Assembly: GCF_003568845.1 (NCBI RefSeq)
Contig: NZ_CP030127.1
Coordinates: 713,501 to 777,500, forward strand
From: Indioceanicola profundi
GTDB lineage: Bacteria > Pseudomonadota > Alphaproteobacteria > Azospirillales > Azospirillaceae
DNA length: 64,000 nt
Direction of reading: 5' to 3'
Below the pieces are notes generated by a model. That model saw only the letters and a list, made by a program, of their open reading frames with translations, did no database searches and was not told the DNA's origin. The position numbers were made by a program, and so were the translations under genes. Below, in pieces: positions 4,961-34,112 of the stretch (position 1 is its first letter; the number at the start of each line of letters is the position of its first letter).

Positions 4961-5524
4961 CTATCGGGCGGCCAGACCGGCAGCCACATACTCTCCAATT
5001 GCAAGGCACGCCGTAAGTCCGGGCGATTCGATGCCGTAGAGGCAAGCAAGTCCCGGAACGCCCGTCTCCTTAGGGAAATCGATCCGGAAATCGGCAAATC
5101 CGCCGCCCGGACCCGATAGTTTCGGTCGGATGCCCGTGTAGCCCGGCTGAAGCCGCGCTTCCTCCAGTCCGGGATAGTAGCTGCGAATAGCCGTCAGGAA
5201 CCGCTCACGGCGGCTGTCGTCGAAAGTATAATCAACCTCTTCGATCCAGCGGACGTCCGGCCCGAACTTGGCCTGGCCTCCCAGATCAACAGTAACATGC
5301 ACGCCCAGCCCGCCATCCTCAGGCACTGGATAGACCAGTCGCCCGAAGGGGCTGCGACCGCTCAACACGTAGTAATGTCCGATTGCCAGATGTCGCGCCG
5401 GCACCCGATCCGCCTGAACACCCAGGCCGAGAGCCAGATTCTGCGCGCCCAGGCCGGCCGCATCCACTACCGTGCGGCAAGCCAGCCGCATAGGCTCGGC
5501 CCCGCCGATATCCAGTTCCGGGCC
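4961..5524 (-). pseudogene. lhgO: L-2-hydroxyglutarate oxidase-like gene, C-terminal part
   Basis: C-terminal half of an FAD-dependent oxidase of the DAO/LhgO family, which oxidises L-2-hydroxyglutarate to 2-oxoglutarate. From the codons for GPELDIGGAEP onward it shows the family pattern: CRTVVDAAGLGAQ, then GHYYVLSGRSPFGRLVYPVP, then the C-terminal FAD-site segment around GYTGIRPKLSGPG and LYGIESPGLTACLAIG. The 5' part of the gene lies beyond the insertion, at 5821-6378, in the same orientation. The open frame reaches 5563 only by reading into the inserted element. Not functional unless the halves are made separately and assemble. Confidence 0.85.
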
Positions 5525-5820
5525 TCTCGCCTTGATTAAGGCGGCCACAAACCCACTGTACAAATCATGAACGAAACGGCCCTCTCCCTGCGCGACTTCA
5601 ACCGCCTCTTCCCGGACGAAGAGGCCGCTCGCGCTTACGGGTCAAGGCTTTGCGCCATGACCGATCCGGGAGCAGGGGGGCCCCCGCCGACCCACGACTG
5701 ACCAATCCTTACTTAGGTGGGGTGAAGCCGGTCCTGGTGAGGTCTACCGGAAGCCGAAAGGCTTCCAAATCGCCCAAGACTCAAGCTCTAGTGGCTGCAT
5801 GAGCTAAGGCGATAGTGCCC
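5520..5820 (+). mobile_element. Deletion derivative of an IS1595-like/tnpB element, inserted in lhgO
   Basis: A 0.3-kb insert opposite to lhgO. Left to right it holds a GGG-starting end with the hairpin CGCCTTGATTAAGGCG (5529-5544), then an IS1595-type transposase start (5567-5637; MNETALSLRDFNRLFPDEE). It then jumps directly into the last 54 codons of a TnpB gene (5638-5802), and ends at GCGATAGTGCCC (5809-5820). Each piece has a close counterpart, in the same order, in the 32065-34092 element. The two coding pieces are in different frames, so nothing functional is encoded. The left boundary is uncertain by about 5 bases. Confidence 0.75.
5638..5802 (+). pseudogene. tnpB: TnpB C-terminal fragment (54 codons)
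   Basis: Translates to RVKALRHDRSGSRGAPADP and onward to KTQALVAA and a stop, aligning along its whole length with the C-terminus of the TnpB at 32083-32757. Only the tail survives; the RuvC and zinc-finger parts are deleted. In TnpB systems this 3' end and the adjacent element end encode the guide (omega) RNA, so the fragment could still be transcribed as RNA. That last point is inference. Confidence 0.75.
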
Positions 5821-6378
5821 AGAGTCCAATTCCGGCCCATCGACGCCGATGCGCCCGCCCAGAACCGGCGTGTGCAACAGCACCGCTCCGCCAGAATTCT
5901 CGATGTCGCCCTGTAGGTTCAGCATCAGCGCATGGCTGTCGATGATTCCGGAGGAGGGGGAGAGCAGGCCAGTTACCGCCTCCACCTTCGGCTCCATGTC
6001 CCTCACCGCCGCACGATCCAGCATCTGTAGATCCGTTACGCTGTTTGCTGCGGCAAGGGTGCGGTAGCCCTCCAGCGTCGCATGATGCTCCGGCCGAGTG
6101 CCGACGATCAGCTTCCCGCATTGCCGATGGGCAATTCCACGCTCCCGGCAATACGCATAAAGTCGATCCCGGCCTTTCACGCAGAGCTGCGCCTTCAATG
6201 TCCCGGCCGGATAATAGATGCCGGCATGGACCACTTCGGAATTACGGCTGCTGGTTTCCTGGCCGATTCCCGCGCCGCGCTCCAGCACCAGCACTTCGCG
6301 ACCGCTCAATGCCAGCGCTCTTCCAACCGCCAACCCGACCACGCCGGCTCCGACGACCACGCAGTCCACCGTCTCCAT
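5821..6378 (-). pseudogene. lhgO: L-2-hydroxyglutarate oxidase-like gene, N-terminal part
   Basis: N-terminal half of the same split gene. It begins with a Rossmann FAD-binding loop, VVVGAGVVGLAVGRAL (GxGxxG, residues about 9-20), then LVLERG. It next has the family motif SSRNSEVVHAGIYYP, where the FAD-histidine contact lies, and LSPSSGIIDSHALMLNLQ. The frame runs into the inserted element and stops at 5788 after 11 foreign codons. The start ATG at 6378 is the first in frame. The codons for GPELD at the break are repeated in the downstream half. Confidence 0.85.
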
Positions 6379-6910: not shown

Positions 6911-8285
6911 ATGACGGTGGTGACCATGACCCGATTGGAATTGTCGCGCGTCGAGGTTCTCGTTCAGCTTGAGGCTGGCAAGCTGACGGTTGGTGCGGCG
7001 GCGGAGATTTTGGGCTTATGCCGGCGCCAGGTGCTGCGGCTGCGTAAGCGGTACCGGCACTCTGGTCCGGCTGGGCTGGTGTCCGGCCATCGCGGCTGGC
7101 CGAGCAATCATCGTCTGCCGGAGGATGTCCGGGCCACGGCGCTGGCGCTGGTACGGGCGCGCTATGCGGATTTCGGCCCGACGCTGGCGGCTGCCGGAGG
7201 ATGTCCGGGCCACGGCGCTGGCGCTGGTACGGGCGCGCTATGCGGATTTCGGCCCGACGCTGGCGGCCGAAAAGCTGGCCGAGTTGCACGGGATCAAGCT
7301 CAGCCGGGAGACGCTGCGGGGCTGGATGATTGCCGATGGCCTCTGGCTGGAGCGGCGGATGCGGGCCCGGGCCGTCCACCAGCCGCGCTATCGCCGCGAC
7401 TGCCCTGGCGAGCTGGTGCAGATTGATGGCTGCGAACACTGGTGGTTTGAGCAGCGCGGTCCGCACTGCACGCTGCTGGTCTTTGTGGACGATGCCACCA
7501 GCCGGCTGATGCATCTGAAGTTCGTGCCCTCGGAGAGTGCCTTGGCCTATCTGCAGGCCACGCGGGACTACATTGCCGCCTATGGCAAGCCGATCGCCTT
7601 TTACAGCGACAAGCACGGTATTTTCCGGGTGAACCGGCCCGGCGCCCAGCTGCGTGGCGACGGCATGACCCAGTTCGGTCGGGCGCTGCATGATCTCAAC
7701 ATCGACATCCTGTGCGCCAACAGCTGTCAGGCCAAGGGCCGGGTGGAACGGGCGCACCTCACCTTGCAGGATCGCTTGGTCAAGGAGCTGCGGCTGCAAG
7801 GGATCTCCACTGTGGAGGCGGCGAACCGGTTCCTGCCGGGCTTCATTGCCGATTACAACCAGCGCTTTGGCAAGGCGCCGCGCAATTCCAAGGATGTGCA
7901 CCGGCCGCTGGCGCCGTATGAGAGTTTGGACGAGGCGCTGGCCTGGCGCGAGCAGCGTACCGTCACGGCAAACCTGACCCTGCACTACAACAAGGTGATG
8001 TTCCTGCTGGAGCCCAACCGGATCACCCGGGCCGCGGCCCGGCAGCGGGTGACCGTGTATGATTATCCTGATGGCCGGCTGGCGATCCGCTGGAAAGGCG
8101 TCGACCTGCCCTATCGCGCCTTCGACAAGCTGCGGCAGGTGGACCAGGGCGCCATCGTCGACAACAAGCGCTTATCTGCAGCCCTGGCGTTTGCGGCAGA
8201 AGCACAGGCAGAGCGGCCACGTCGGCGCAACAACAACCTCAAGCGCACGGCCCAGTCCAGGGGATTGATGTCGCTGTCGAGCTGA
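6911..8285 (+). pseudogene. ISNCY family transposase, frameshifted by a 76-bp tandem duplication
   Basis: Transposase with an N-terminal helix-turn-helix (LTVGAAAEILGLCRRQVLRL) and an rve/DDE core (VQIDGCEHWWFE, FVDDATSRLMHLKF, KGRVERAHLTLQDRLVKEL), close to the copy at 8494. Bases 7115-7190 are repeated exactly at 7191-7266. Since 76 is not a multiple of 3, the frame is lost: the first 94 or so codons are in one frame and the rest in another, open from 6990 to 8285. Removing one copy would restore a single frame. The start ATG at 6911 follows AGGGAG. Confidence 0.9.
7115..7266 (+). repeat. Exact 76-bp tandem duplication
   Basis: Two adjacent identical 76-base units (7115-7190 and 7191-7266), each starting CTGCCGGAGGATGTCC, lie inside the transposase gene. 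The duplication is what breaks the reading frame. The two copies show no divergence, so the event is recent, or reversible by slippage or recombination. Confidence 0.95.
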
Positions 8286-8400: not shown

Positions 8401-9550
8401 GTGTAAGCGGGTGTAGACGCCGGATAGTGATGTCACCGCCCTGCCGGATAGAAGTGTCACCCTCTTCCTGGGTGCGTGTCCAGGGAGGCGGCGATGGTGC
8501 TCGTGATGATGAGTTCGCGGGAGCTGCGACGAGTGGAGGTGCTGGCCGAGGTGGCCGGTGGACACATGGCGGCAGCGGTGGCAGCAGGCCACCTGGGCGT
8601 CAGCCGCCGCCAGCTGTTCCGGCTGCTGGCGCGGTTCCGGGCCGAAGGCCCGGCCGGTATGGCGTCGCGCCGGCGCGGCCGGCCGAGTAACCGGCGCACG
8701 CCCGCGGCGGTGCGCGACCAAGCCCTAACGCTGGTGCGCGAGCGCTACGCCGACTTCGGCCCGACGCTGGCGGCGGAGAAGCTATTGGCGCTGCACGGCG
8801 TCAAGGTGGGCCGCGAGACCCTGCGGGGCTGGATGGCCGCCGCGGGCCTGTGGACCAGCCGCAAGGCGCACCTCGCCCGGGTGCACCAGCCCAGACCCCG
8901 GCGCGAGCGGCTGGGCGAACTGGTCCAGGTGGATGGCTGCGAGCACCCCTGGCTGGAGGACCGCGGCCCTGCCTGCTCGCTGCTGGTGTTTGTGGACGAC
9001 GCCACCAGCCGGCTCATGCACCTGAAGTTCGTGCCGGCCGAGAGCGCGCTGGCTTACATGCAGGCGACGCGCGACTACGTGGCCGCCTACGGAAAGCCGC
9101 TGGCCCTTTACTCCGACCGCCACGGCATCTTCCGGGTGAACCGTGAGGCCAAGCGTGGCGACGGCATGACCCAGTTCGGGCGGGCGCTGCGGGACCTGGA
9201 CATCCAGATCCTGTGCGCGCCCTCTCCGCAGGCCAAGGGGCGTGTGGAGCGGGCGCACCTCACGCTCCAGGACCGCCTCGTCAAGGAACTGCGCCTGGCC
9301 GGCGCCTGCACCGTGGAGGCGGCGAACTGGCTGCTGCCGGGCTTCGTGGCCGACTATAACAGACGTTTCGCCAAGCCTGCGCGCTGCCCGGACGACGCGC
9401 ACCGCCGCTTGGCGCCCTACGAGAACCTGGATGAGGCGCTGGCCTGGCGCGAGGACCGCACGGTCACCGCCGCGCTGACGTTGCACTACAACCGCATGAT
9501 GCTCATCCTGGACCGCGGCCACCGGGTGGCCCGGGCTATGGCGCGACAAT
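8401..9550 (+). mobile_element. ISNCY-type element, copy 2 (3'-truncated)
   Basis: The left end starts TGTGTAAGCG at about 8401 and carries two ATGTCACC-type boxes (near 8430 and 8455), like copy 1. The right end is missing, because the next IS starts at about 9555-9566. It abuts copy 1 head to tail, but is clearly divergent from it in sequence, so this is not a simple duplication. Confidence 0.6.
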
Positions 9551-9558
9551 CTGAGTGA
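8494..9558 (+). pseudogene. ISNCY family transposase, C-terminally truncated
   Basis: Same family as the gene at 6911: an HTH segment (AGHLGVSRRQLFRLLARF) and a DDE/rve core (VQVDGCEHPWLED, FVDDATSRLMHL, KGRVERAHLTLQDRL). The ATG at 8494 follows AGGGAG at a good distance. Aligned with copy 1, it stops about 85 residues early, right after HYNRMMLIL and a few more residues. There the sequence passes into the end of the next insertion element, so the tail is lost. The catalytic residues are retained, but activity is doubtful. Confidence 0.85.
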
Positions 9559-31826: not shown

Positions 31827-32064
31827 CCGTCCACCCCATGTGTCATTTTTAGGACAGTGTAACGTGTAGAAAGTGGGGTTGGCTCAGTAGCAAAGGCTTA
31901 TCAGAGGAATAGTGGGATCAATCGCGTCCTGATTACCCAATCTGCACAGGGGTGAATCCAACACAACCCGCGGCATTCAACGGACGGCGGGAACCAGACC
32001 GCGCCACGTTGCGGCATACGGGAACATGGCCATGTTCCCGTGCGGGCGACCATATCTCAGGAGA
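31827..32064. other. Intergenic stretch between GT4 and the IS1595/tnpB element
   Basis: Carries the upstream region of the minus-strand GT4 gene. GGGAACATGGCCATGTTCCC near 32020-32039 is a perfect palindrome (two 10-base arms, no loop). No gene was found. Confidence 0.4.
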
Positions 32065-32082
32065 GGGCACTATCGCTTTAAC

Positions 32083-32757
32083 TCAGGCAGCCACAAGGGC
32101 TCGAGTTTTCGGCGATTTGGGAACCTTACGGCTTCCGATGGACCTCACCATGACTGGCTTCACCCTACCGAAGTAGGGGTTTGCCAGTCGCGGGTCGGCG
32201 GGGGCACCCCGGCTCCCGGATCGGTTAGAGCGTAATGCCCTGACCCGTCGCTCACCGAACCCGCGCACGAGGTCGGCGAGGACCGCAGCCTTGCTCTGGA
32301 ACAGCCAACCGTTAGGGTGCGCACGGCGCACTTCGATGTTGGCTGCCGCATTGAGGTCGGCATGCATTGTCTTACCGCACCAGAGACACTTGAAGGTACT
32401 CTGGTCGCGGCGGTTTCTTTTGTCCCCGTAGCCACAGCAGGAACAGGTCTGGCTGCTGTAGGCCGGGTTGACTTCCGTGGACGTGATGCCGTGGCGGTCC
32501 TTCATGTCCGCCAGCCTAGCCTTGATGATCGACCGCCCGCAGTTGCGCAGGATGGCGTTCAGGCGGCGGGACAGATCCGAGTGCCGGAAATCCAGACGCT
32601 TCAGCACCGGTCCTGCGGGCTTGCCGCCGGCCACGAGCTTGTTCAGCACGCGACCGATCTCGGTGCGCAGGAACCCGCACATGTCGTCCACCAGGTCGCG
32701 ATACCGCTTGCTGTCGCGGGGCTTTCGCCCGGCTCTCTGCTGGCTGGCGGCGATCAT
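32083..32757 (-). pseudogene. tnpB: TnpB C-terminal frame (RuvC II/III, zinc finger)
   Basis: The second reading frame of a frameshifted TnpB. It continues the upstream frame (RLISMIAASQQRAGRKPRDS) and holds the RuvC-II Glu in ITSTEVNPAYSSQTCSCCG. It also has the two zinc-finger pairs (CSCCG and FKCLWCGKTMHA) and the RuvC-III Asp in HADLNAAANIE. A basic tail ends ALVAA. The three-acid RuvC set is complete when the two frames are joined. TnpB proteins are RNA-guided DNA endonucleases of transposons and ancestors of Cas12. Its 3' end and the adjacent element end would encode the guide RNA. Confidence 0.85.
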
Positions 32758-32762
32758 GGAGA

Positions 32763-33629
32763 TCAGGCGTCGTAGCGCCGGAGTTGCTTCAGCCAGCCCT
32801 GACCGAGCAGTTGGCCCTCGCTGGTGGCGAACAGCATGTATAAGCCGAAGTCGAGTGCGATCACGCCGCTGCCGTCGTAAGCTGCGCGGGAGGCGGTACA
32901 GGACTCCCCCATGTCGGTGACGATGCCGAAGGTCAGCCGTCCGTCACGCTGGTTGACCTGGATGCCGTCGGTGGCCCGGCCGGGTCTCCGGTCATGGTAA
33001 GCATGGATCAGCAGTGGGACGGCGATCTTGCGCCCTTTCTCCCTGGTGGAGAGGTTGACCCACCAACCGACTTGGCCGCCCTGCATCGCCTTTACGGGCT
33101 TAGCAATGGAGCCCACCCGGTGGTCCAGCCGCATGGAGATGCGGGACAGGTCCGGAGGGCGGTGTTCGCTCATGACATGGTGCGTAATCGACCGGGCCAG
33201 CCGCCGGATCTCGACGGAAATGATCTCGCCCGTTCCCTTCATCACCACGTCCGTGCGGGAGAACCAAGCGCCCGCGCGGTTGATGGTATGAAGCATGTGC
33301 TTGGTGTCGGACGGCAGGCTGCTGGCGTTCACCGTATCGCGGAACTCGTTGGCCCGGTTGCTCACCCAGCCCTGCAACTGCACCACGACCTGATAGCGGC
33401 ACATTTGGACCCGGTTGGCCGCGCCGATGACGGCGGCGAAGGTTACCTTGTCCACGTCGTGATTCCTGTCGAACCGGCCCGTCTCGAAGAACAGCCGCCA
33501 CTGCTCGCGGCCCAGCAGCACCGCACCAGCCCGATAGGCCCGCAGCAGGGCCAGCACCGCCTGCTCCTTGCTCACCGTCAGGTTCGACGGCAGCATGACG
33601 GGCGGATGGGCGGGCTTGGTCCGTGCCAT
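32763..33629 (-). pseudogene. tnpB: TnpB N-terminal frame (REC/WED-like, RuvC I)
   Basis: First 288 residues of the TnpB-like protein. The N-terminus (LPSNLTVSKEQAVLALLRAY) and the long helical and beta region leading to GVIALDFGLYMLFATSEGQ correspond to the recognition part and the first RuvC Asp. The frame ends LRRYDA and stop. Adding one base in the GACGCC run near 32767 would continue it into RLISMIAASQQ of the downstream frame. So a single-base loss, a sequencing error or recoding splits the gene. Joined length is about 510 residues, long for TnpB. A second possible start is the ATG at 33597. Confidence 0.8.
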
Positions 33630-34044
33630 CAGGCGGTTATGTGTTGGGATGACCCGCGTGACGACATCGCCCCCGCGACCAGCAGCAGCGGCCGCTTTGT
33701 TCCACGCCCCTTCGGATTGGCCGGAGGCGGCTCGTTGTCGTCATCCTTGTGCTCGGGCTTGGCTCGCTTGCGCGGCGGTGCCCCGGCGTAGGTCTCGTCA
33801 ATCTCGACGATGACCGAAAGCAGCGGGTTCTGCTCCGCCATCATGGCCCTGATCCGATGATCGAGATGCCAAGCCGTCTCGGAGGACACGCCCAGCATAT
33901 CGGCCATCTTGACGGCGCTACGGAGCCGCAGGCAGGATACACGGGGCCGTCGGGTCACCGGGACTGCTCGAACCATGCACGCGCCGCCTCTTCGTCGGGA
34001 AAAAGCCGGTTGAAGTCGCGCAGGGAGAGAGCCGCTTCGTTTAT
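33630..34044 (-). pseudogene. IS1595-family (ISXO2-like) DDE transposase remnant
   Basis: Begins INEAALSLRDFNRLFPDEE (ATA in place of ATG) and runs AARAWFEQSR. Then a stop stands where Trp is expected, followed by PDGPVYPACGS, where one zinc-ribbon Cys has become Tyr. About 60 residues are then missing. It resumes as VKMADMLGVSSETAWHLDHR and IRAMM, then VIVEIDETYAG with the first catalytic Asp and PKGRGTKRPLLLVA. After a further frame change it reads RGGDVVTRVIPTHNR, where it meets tnpB. The other catalytic residues are absent. Clearly dead. Confidence 0.85.
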
Positions 34045-34112
34045 GCTTTGCACATAGAACTTAGGGGGCGCCTTAGTCAAGGCGTTAGTCCCACCAAGAG
34101 ATATCGCGGAGT

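Follow-up and report, generated by a model that had tools for sequence, protein, structure and literature searches.

A rare composite transposon that joins an IS1595-type DDE transposase to TnpB, with a predicted guide-RNA scaffold ending at its right terminal repeat

Published work places TnpB, an RNA-guided nuclease related to CRISPR Cas12, in only two bacterial transposon families other than the one described here. In a 64,000-nucleotide stretch of the Indioceanicola profundi genome (contig NZ_CP030127.1, positions 713,501 to 777,500; hereafter the window) we identified a decayed copy of a third kind of element. On the evidence of sequence comparison with other copies and with relatives, we show that this transposon is composite: one operon between shared terminal repeats encodes TnpB together with a DDE transposase of the IS1595 type. 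We think it likely, with real room for doubt, that these elements represent a lineage of bacterial DDE transposons equipped with an RNA-guided nuclease of their own for homing. The right repeat would then do double duty and co-vary with the 3' coding end of tnpB, insertion linked to RTA would supply the nuclease with its motif, and the 8-bp target duplication would start the guide. A literature search found no paper that joins IS1595 and TnpB as one element; most subscription papers lay outside its reach, and an earlier mention is possible.

The window element occupies 34093 to 32065 on the minus strand. A sequence-only reading of the window had proposed a TnpB gene behind an IS1595-like transposase between imperfect inverted ends; profile searches bore out both genes, and the ends had been placed correctly to one base. 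In particular, NF033547 (IS1595 family) matches the transposase remnant over 33629–33976 with 48 bits (E value 1.2e-12), below the 75-bit cut-off because the remnant is truncated, and the TnpB zinc-ribbon domain PF07282 matches tnpB with 62 bits against a cut-off of 26. Along the minus strand, GATA (34102–34105), a candidate target-adjacent motif of the form RTA, is followed by the left copy of the target duplication, TCTCTTGG (34094–34101), the left terminal repeat, TGGGACTAACGCCTTGACTAA, also written TGGGACTAACGCC (34073–34093), and the transposase remnant (33629–34044, its start aligned to a second copy on C3 described below). The anticipated TGATG stop-start overlap is present at 33629, and tnpB (32083–33629) then runs to its stop, a short spacer, the right terminal repeat, GCGATAGTGCCC (32065–32085), and the right copy of the duplication, TCTCCTGA (32057–32064), which would provide the first guide bases. 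The outer ends form an imperfect terminal repeat, (T)GGGACTAACGCC and GGGCACTATCGC, and the two copies of the duplication agree at 6 of 8 positions. The transposase has suffered an internal deletion and an in-frame stop, and tnpB is broken relative to the C3 copy by a 1-nt frameshift near 32760 and by Lys in place of the RuvC-II Glu; judged by these two lesions in tnpB, the window copy is dead and survives as a relic of the composite element.

The second large copy, at C3:373542–375582 (L007), is 86% identical to the window element and encodes an intact TnpB of 519 residues together with a transposase that is open for only 136 residues; the transposase genes of the two copies are broken at different places. 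From its sequence, we take the gene interrupted by this copy to be terC. The copy is flanked by a perfect 8-bp duplication, TTCTCCAT, and its joined flanks (308 bases) match 12 other genomes of the family end to end across the site, at 76–84% identity. The perfect duplication and the uninterrupted site in those genomes argue that the transposase remnant and tnpB arrived together, as had been proposed for the pair, and that their arrival made the 8-bp duplication typical of IS1595 elements. A third copy, on the plus strand of the window at 5519–5820, is a deletion remnant that retains the left end with the transposase start and the right end with the tnpB tail. The sequence-only reading had noticed this recurrence at 5520–5820, and its similarity to the window element (84% over 184 bp, 79% over 115 bp) confirms it. 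The observation as a whole goes far beyond chance. GATA (5507–5510) and a left duplication, TCCAGTTC (5511–5518), precede the remnant, and the right copy of the duplication, TCCAATTC (5825–5832), a 7/8 match, follows it after four extra bases. The 3' part of a predicted guide-RNA scaffold is well preserved here (5748–5820; 91 bits from a covariance model that includes this sequence). The 302-bp two-ended remnant splits a flavin adenine dinucleotide (FAD)-dependent oxidoreductase gene on the minus strand (window 4961–5563 and 5788–6378).

Related elements were found in Azospirillum (genomes G026, which is A. oryzae L029; G035, L027; and G038, L028), Methylacidimicrobium (L030), Parvibaculum (L031), Acidocella (L032) and Caenispirillum (L035), as fragments in Acidiphilium (L037 and the fragmentary L038), and on a Salipiger plasmid (L040/L048), where the genes are annotated 'IS1595 family transposase' and then 'zinc ribbon domain-containing protein'. 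Others lie in metagenome-assembled genomes of Trueperaceae (L033) and Gemmatimonadetes (L034) and on viral contigs (L046, L117 and L118), taxon assignments that are to be treated with care. In almost every one of them, tnpB is immediately preceded by a transposase, whole or remnant; L027, L028, L031, L032 and L033 have the TGATG overlap, and in Salipiger the transposase TAA is followed at once by the tnpB ATG. Several relatives combine a whole transposase, tnpB and 8-bp duplications, and their intact TnpBs measure about 510–555 residues. The relatives thus show the arrangement for which the sequence-only reading had proposed to search, with a TnpB of this size encoded right after an IS1595 transposase, inside shared ends and 8-bp duplications. 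The duplications are perfect at seven sites (C3, L028, L031, L033, L035, L046 and L048) and match at 7 of 8 positions in L027; no position could be assigned to the left ends of L030 and L037. No copy has tnpB alone bounded by IS605-type ends, and where the transposase is missing, it has been truncated (in L036 and L039 just its final codons remain ahead of the overlap) or lost (L026). The relatives therefore support the proposed lineage of DDE-transposon-associated TnpBs, with the qualification that the window copy is dead and that both larger copies in its genome have a broken transposase.

Searches for further members pointed to a rare element. It was present in 4 of the 82 genomes of the family; a class-wide TnpB search of 385 sampled genomes returned only the genome studied here, an order-wide search added no members, and a viral scan with the Salipiger TnpB as query found none. 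The composite DDE element is widespread but rare, and TnpB is a lasting part of it. On viral contig L117 (IMGVR_UViG_3300025534_000006) an internal deletion has fused the transposase to the tnpB tail with both ends kept. A Candidatus Methylocalor cossyra plasmid (OZ026885.1; L049, 4960–5060) carries an IS1595 transposase that belongs to the tnpB-linked clade. Its stop codon and an ATG overlap as ATGA, an IS256 element comes immediately after it, and the tnpB of this locus may have been lost to the IS256 insertion.

Both proteins retain the residues on which their activities would depend and form clades of their own. The transposase residues D136, D212, E253 and K273 are invariant in an alignment of members, and the transposases of intact relatives score 151–157 bits against the NF033547 cut-off of 75. 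The RuvC triad of TnpB (D264, E348 and D429) and the zinc-ribbon Cys residues are invariant among members, the Lys of the window copy apart, and the triad is kept across members that are only about 45–50% identical. Intact TnpBs score 85–90 bits with NF040570, below its cut-off of 100, which marks them as a divergent TnpB branch; the nearest TnpBs outside the clade are IS607-type and about 34–36% identical. In a TnpB tree, whose sole IS605 row was too long to root it, the IS607-type rows and one solo Mycobacterium row group together (97/98), with every IS1595-linked row outside. The transposase tree sets the tnpB-linked rows and L049 apart from 42 tnpB-less IS1595 rows with support of 98/91, and tnpB of this type was absent from the fetched flanks of the tnpB-less loci. 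These results fit a single capture of tnpB followed by long joint descent with the transposase. The two trees are not fully congruent (L032, L033 and L046 versus L007, L028, L030 and L031); L046 groups with the Acidocella element L032 by transposase but with L030 by TnpB, a conflict that may reflect exchange between elements. An AlphaFold model of the Parvibaculum TnpB, built from 7 sequences, had a mean predicted local distance difference test (pLDDT) score of 49 and was not used.

The insertion sites share a short motif. The four bases before the perfect left duplications are GGTA (C3, L033 and L035), AATA (L028), CATA (L031), GATA (L046) and AGTA (L048), and GATA precedes the three decayed duplications (the window element, the 5519 remnant and L027). 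RTA thus stands directly before the duplication at 7 of 7 perfect sites, and at all 10 two-sided sites of the clade when the decayed ones are included, against a background of 0.93% of positions in these sequences; GTA also occurs at three left ends that lack a usable right side (L047, L049 and L117). For comparison we used seven independent tnpB-less IS1595 insertions with 8-bp duplications matching at 7 or 8 of 8 positions, counting L089/L103 once and setting aside the poor candidates L087 and L104. Most tnpB-less controls had no clear duplication, and automatic duplication scans of L049 and L008–L011 found none. Among the seven, RTA was found at none, the preceding bases being CTT (L050), AGG (L084), GGA (L101) and AAA (L086, L089, L092 and L097); in the transposase tree, L050, L084, L086 and L092 are placed on the sister branch. 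No weight is given to p-values computed with other counts (12 sites against 6). These insertion-site data do not separate the choice of RTA by the transposase from selection by the nuclease, and RTA as the TnpB motif is a prediction drawn from them.

The right end shows features that may belong to a guide-RNA scaffold. A 9-pair hairpin in the 3' coding end of tnpB (helix A; 32223–32245, minus strand, in the window element) is 98.4% paired and shows 10 double changes in 7 members, as compared with 0–3 in slid controls, and helices nearer the right end have 13 double changes among 8 members, against 0–6 in slid controls. In the outermost of these, helix E, the right terminal repeat is the 3' strand: GGCGAT pairs with upstream ATCGCC or ATCGTC, CCTGAT with ATCAGG, and CTTGAT with ATCAGT; in the window element the GCGAT stretch of the repeat plays this part. 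(Note that the shuffle counts ignore relatedness and that the helices were chosen after viewing folds of the same sequences, and so the covarying helices are support, not proof, for a guide RNA.) A covariance model built from 8 sequences, among them the window element (32065–32137, minus strand, covering helices C, E and D and ending at the right end; 85.9 bits), matches the held-out L026 with an E value of 7.6e-9 and L032 and L031 weakly, at the right place (0.015 and 0.024); unrelated matches had E values of 0.67 or more. When all 13 ends were folded together with RNAalifold, misalignment of the distant members left a weak and mixed structure, and pairs were for that reason counted on close members; an Rfam search of the locus returned no match. 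It appears that the right terminal repeat is at once a transposase site and part of the guide-RNA scaffold. A pseudoknot has been described in other TnpB RNAs, and these ends may hold a counterpart: in their alignment the second hairpin has a conserved GGGG loop, which could pair with the CCC that closes the element, immediately ahead of the guide.

These observations raise the possibility of a homing cycle, whose RNA, cutting and retention steps are inferred. First, the whole unit inserts and duplicates 8 bp of its target, in this clade immediately after RTA; the sequences strongly support this step. RNA from the 3' end of tnpB would then fold, its last helix taking one strand from the right terminal repeat, as the covariation suggests, and would run out of the element at the right end, such that the duplication and the right flank become the guide. 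TnpB bound to this RNA would recognize RTA plus guide, which are adjacent only at an empty site; a filled site would be spared, its left junction matching only the 8 duplicated bases and its right junction having the terminal repeat instead of RTA. By analogy with IS200/605 elements, whose TnpB cuts sites without the element and acts as a gene drive in plasmids (PMC11870625), cutting of the empty site followed by repair from the filled copy would keep or copy the transposon. We regard this four-step account, from unit insertion to retention, as probable. Several points weigh against it. L118, a viral contig with no recognisable duplication, lacks RTA; L049, the nearest member without a visible tnpB, has GTA, with the IS256 element directly behind its transposase; and RTA may be a target preference of the transposase alone. 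Distant members match the RNA model weakly (L031 and L032) or not significantly (Salipiger, 1.8, at the right place), and helix E could act as DNA, as a repeated transposase site. Finally, the prediction for eukaryotic DDE transposons is that the duplication belongs to the scaffold and not to the guide (PMC10711439). In IS1595-TnpB elements the duplication is more likely guide than scaffold, because it is variable.

Some of these points suit a passenger TnpB, which would move with the IS1595 transposase as a unit and do something else, or little, with RTA reflecting transposase preference only. The sites leave RTA inseparable from such a preference, L049 has GTA with no tnpB in sight, and the window tnpB is broken; against this, the triad is kept at such low identity, tnpB outlasts the transposase in C3, L026, L036 and L039, the covarying helices end at the terminal repeat, and the tnpB-less relatives do not use RTA. 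Taken together, these points lead us to consider a mere passenger unlikely. We give considerably less credence to recruitment of TnpB into a different role, for example as a TldR-like regulator with a dead nuclease or in the service of the host, which could account for the persistence of tnpB beyond the transposase in several copies and for the lost RuvC-II Glu of the window copy: the triad is intact in other members, the copies lie at unrelated places that include broken genes, a plasmid and viral contigs, and the window copy is also frameshifted, hence simply decayed. Local insertion of an IS605- or IS607-type tnpB element behind an IS1595 element, for which one could cite the IS607-type nearest TnpBs and the commonness of nested mobile elements, is very improbable given the same order, overlap and ends in many taxa, the 8-bp duplications round the whole unit, the empty site, the matching clades of both proteins, and member loci at which no Y1 or serine transposase and no IS605-type ends were seen.

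The proposed homing transposon combines traits of several known systems. With IS1595 transposons that lack tnpB it shares the family of its DDE transposase, CGNNNCTAT-type terminal repeats and 8-bp duplications (ISApl4 also has 8-bp repeats; PMC12561309), and it differs from them in tnpB, which their fetched flanks lack, in RTA, seen at none of their seven sites, and in its branch of the transposase tree. Like IS607, it places tnpB after the transposase gene, either adjacent to it or overlapping it, and the TnpBs nearest in sequence are of the IS607 type. However, IS607 uses a serine recombinase and makes no target duplication; in every member of our clade that keeps a partner gene, the partner is the IS1595 transposase, and serine recombinases were found only beside outside TnpBs. 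In ISXfa1 (IS607), the first right-flanking base belongs to the scaffold and the motif is GGG (PMC10711439). With IS200/IS605 elements such as ISDra2, whose type of TnpB cuts sites without the element (PMC11870625), it shares a tnpB 3' end by the right end and, by prediction here, a guide from the right flank and a motif at the left flank. Those elements, in contrast, have a Y1 single-strand transposase and neither inverted repeats nor a duplication; no Y1 gene was found among the open reading frames round the members examined.

A further parallel is Fanzor in eukaryotic DDE transposons, where a TnpB-family nuclease was likewise captured and the terminal repeat is part of the predicted RNA scaffold (PMC10711439, PMC3627910). 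The element described here is bacterial, an independent capture with canonical TnpB active-site signatures: its members have DFG or DYG and the canonical Glu in an LVLERL strand, rather than the D-P-G and alternative Glu signatures of Fanzor (PMC10711439). The IS1595-TnpB lineage is both a bacterial counter-example and a parallel to the capture of Fanzor. With it one can test how a guide-RNA nuclease adjusts to a transposition chemistry that is new to it, in the end of its scaffold, the start of its guide and the matching of its motif, and it offers intact TnpBs of about 511–555 residues with RTA as the predicted motif. Elsewhere in the window, two adjacent, similar open reading frames in the same direction (6990–8285 and 8476–9558) resemble integrase-core (DDE) transposases and are possibly two related insertion sequences side by side.
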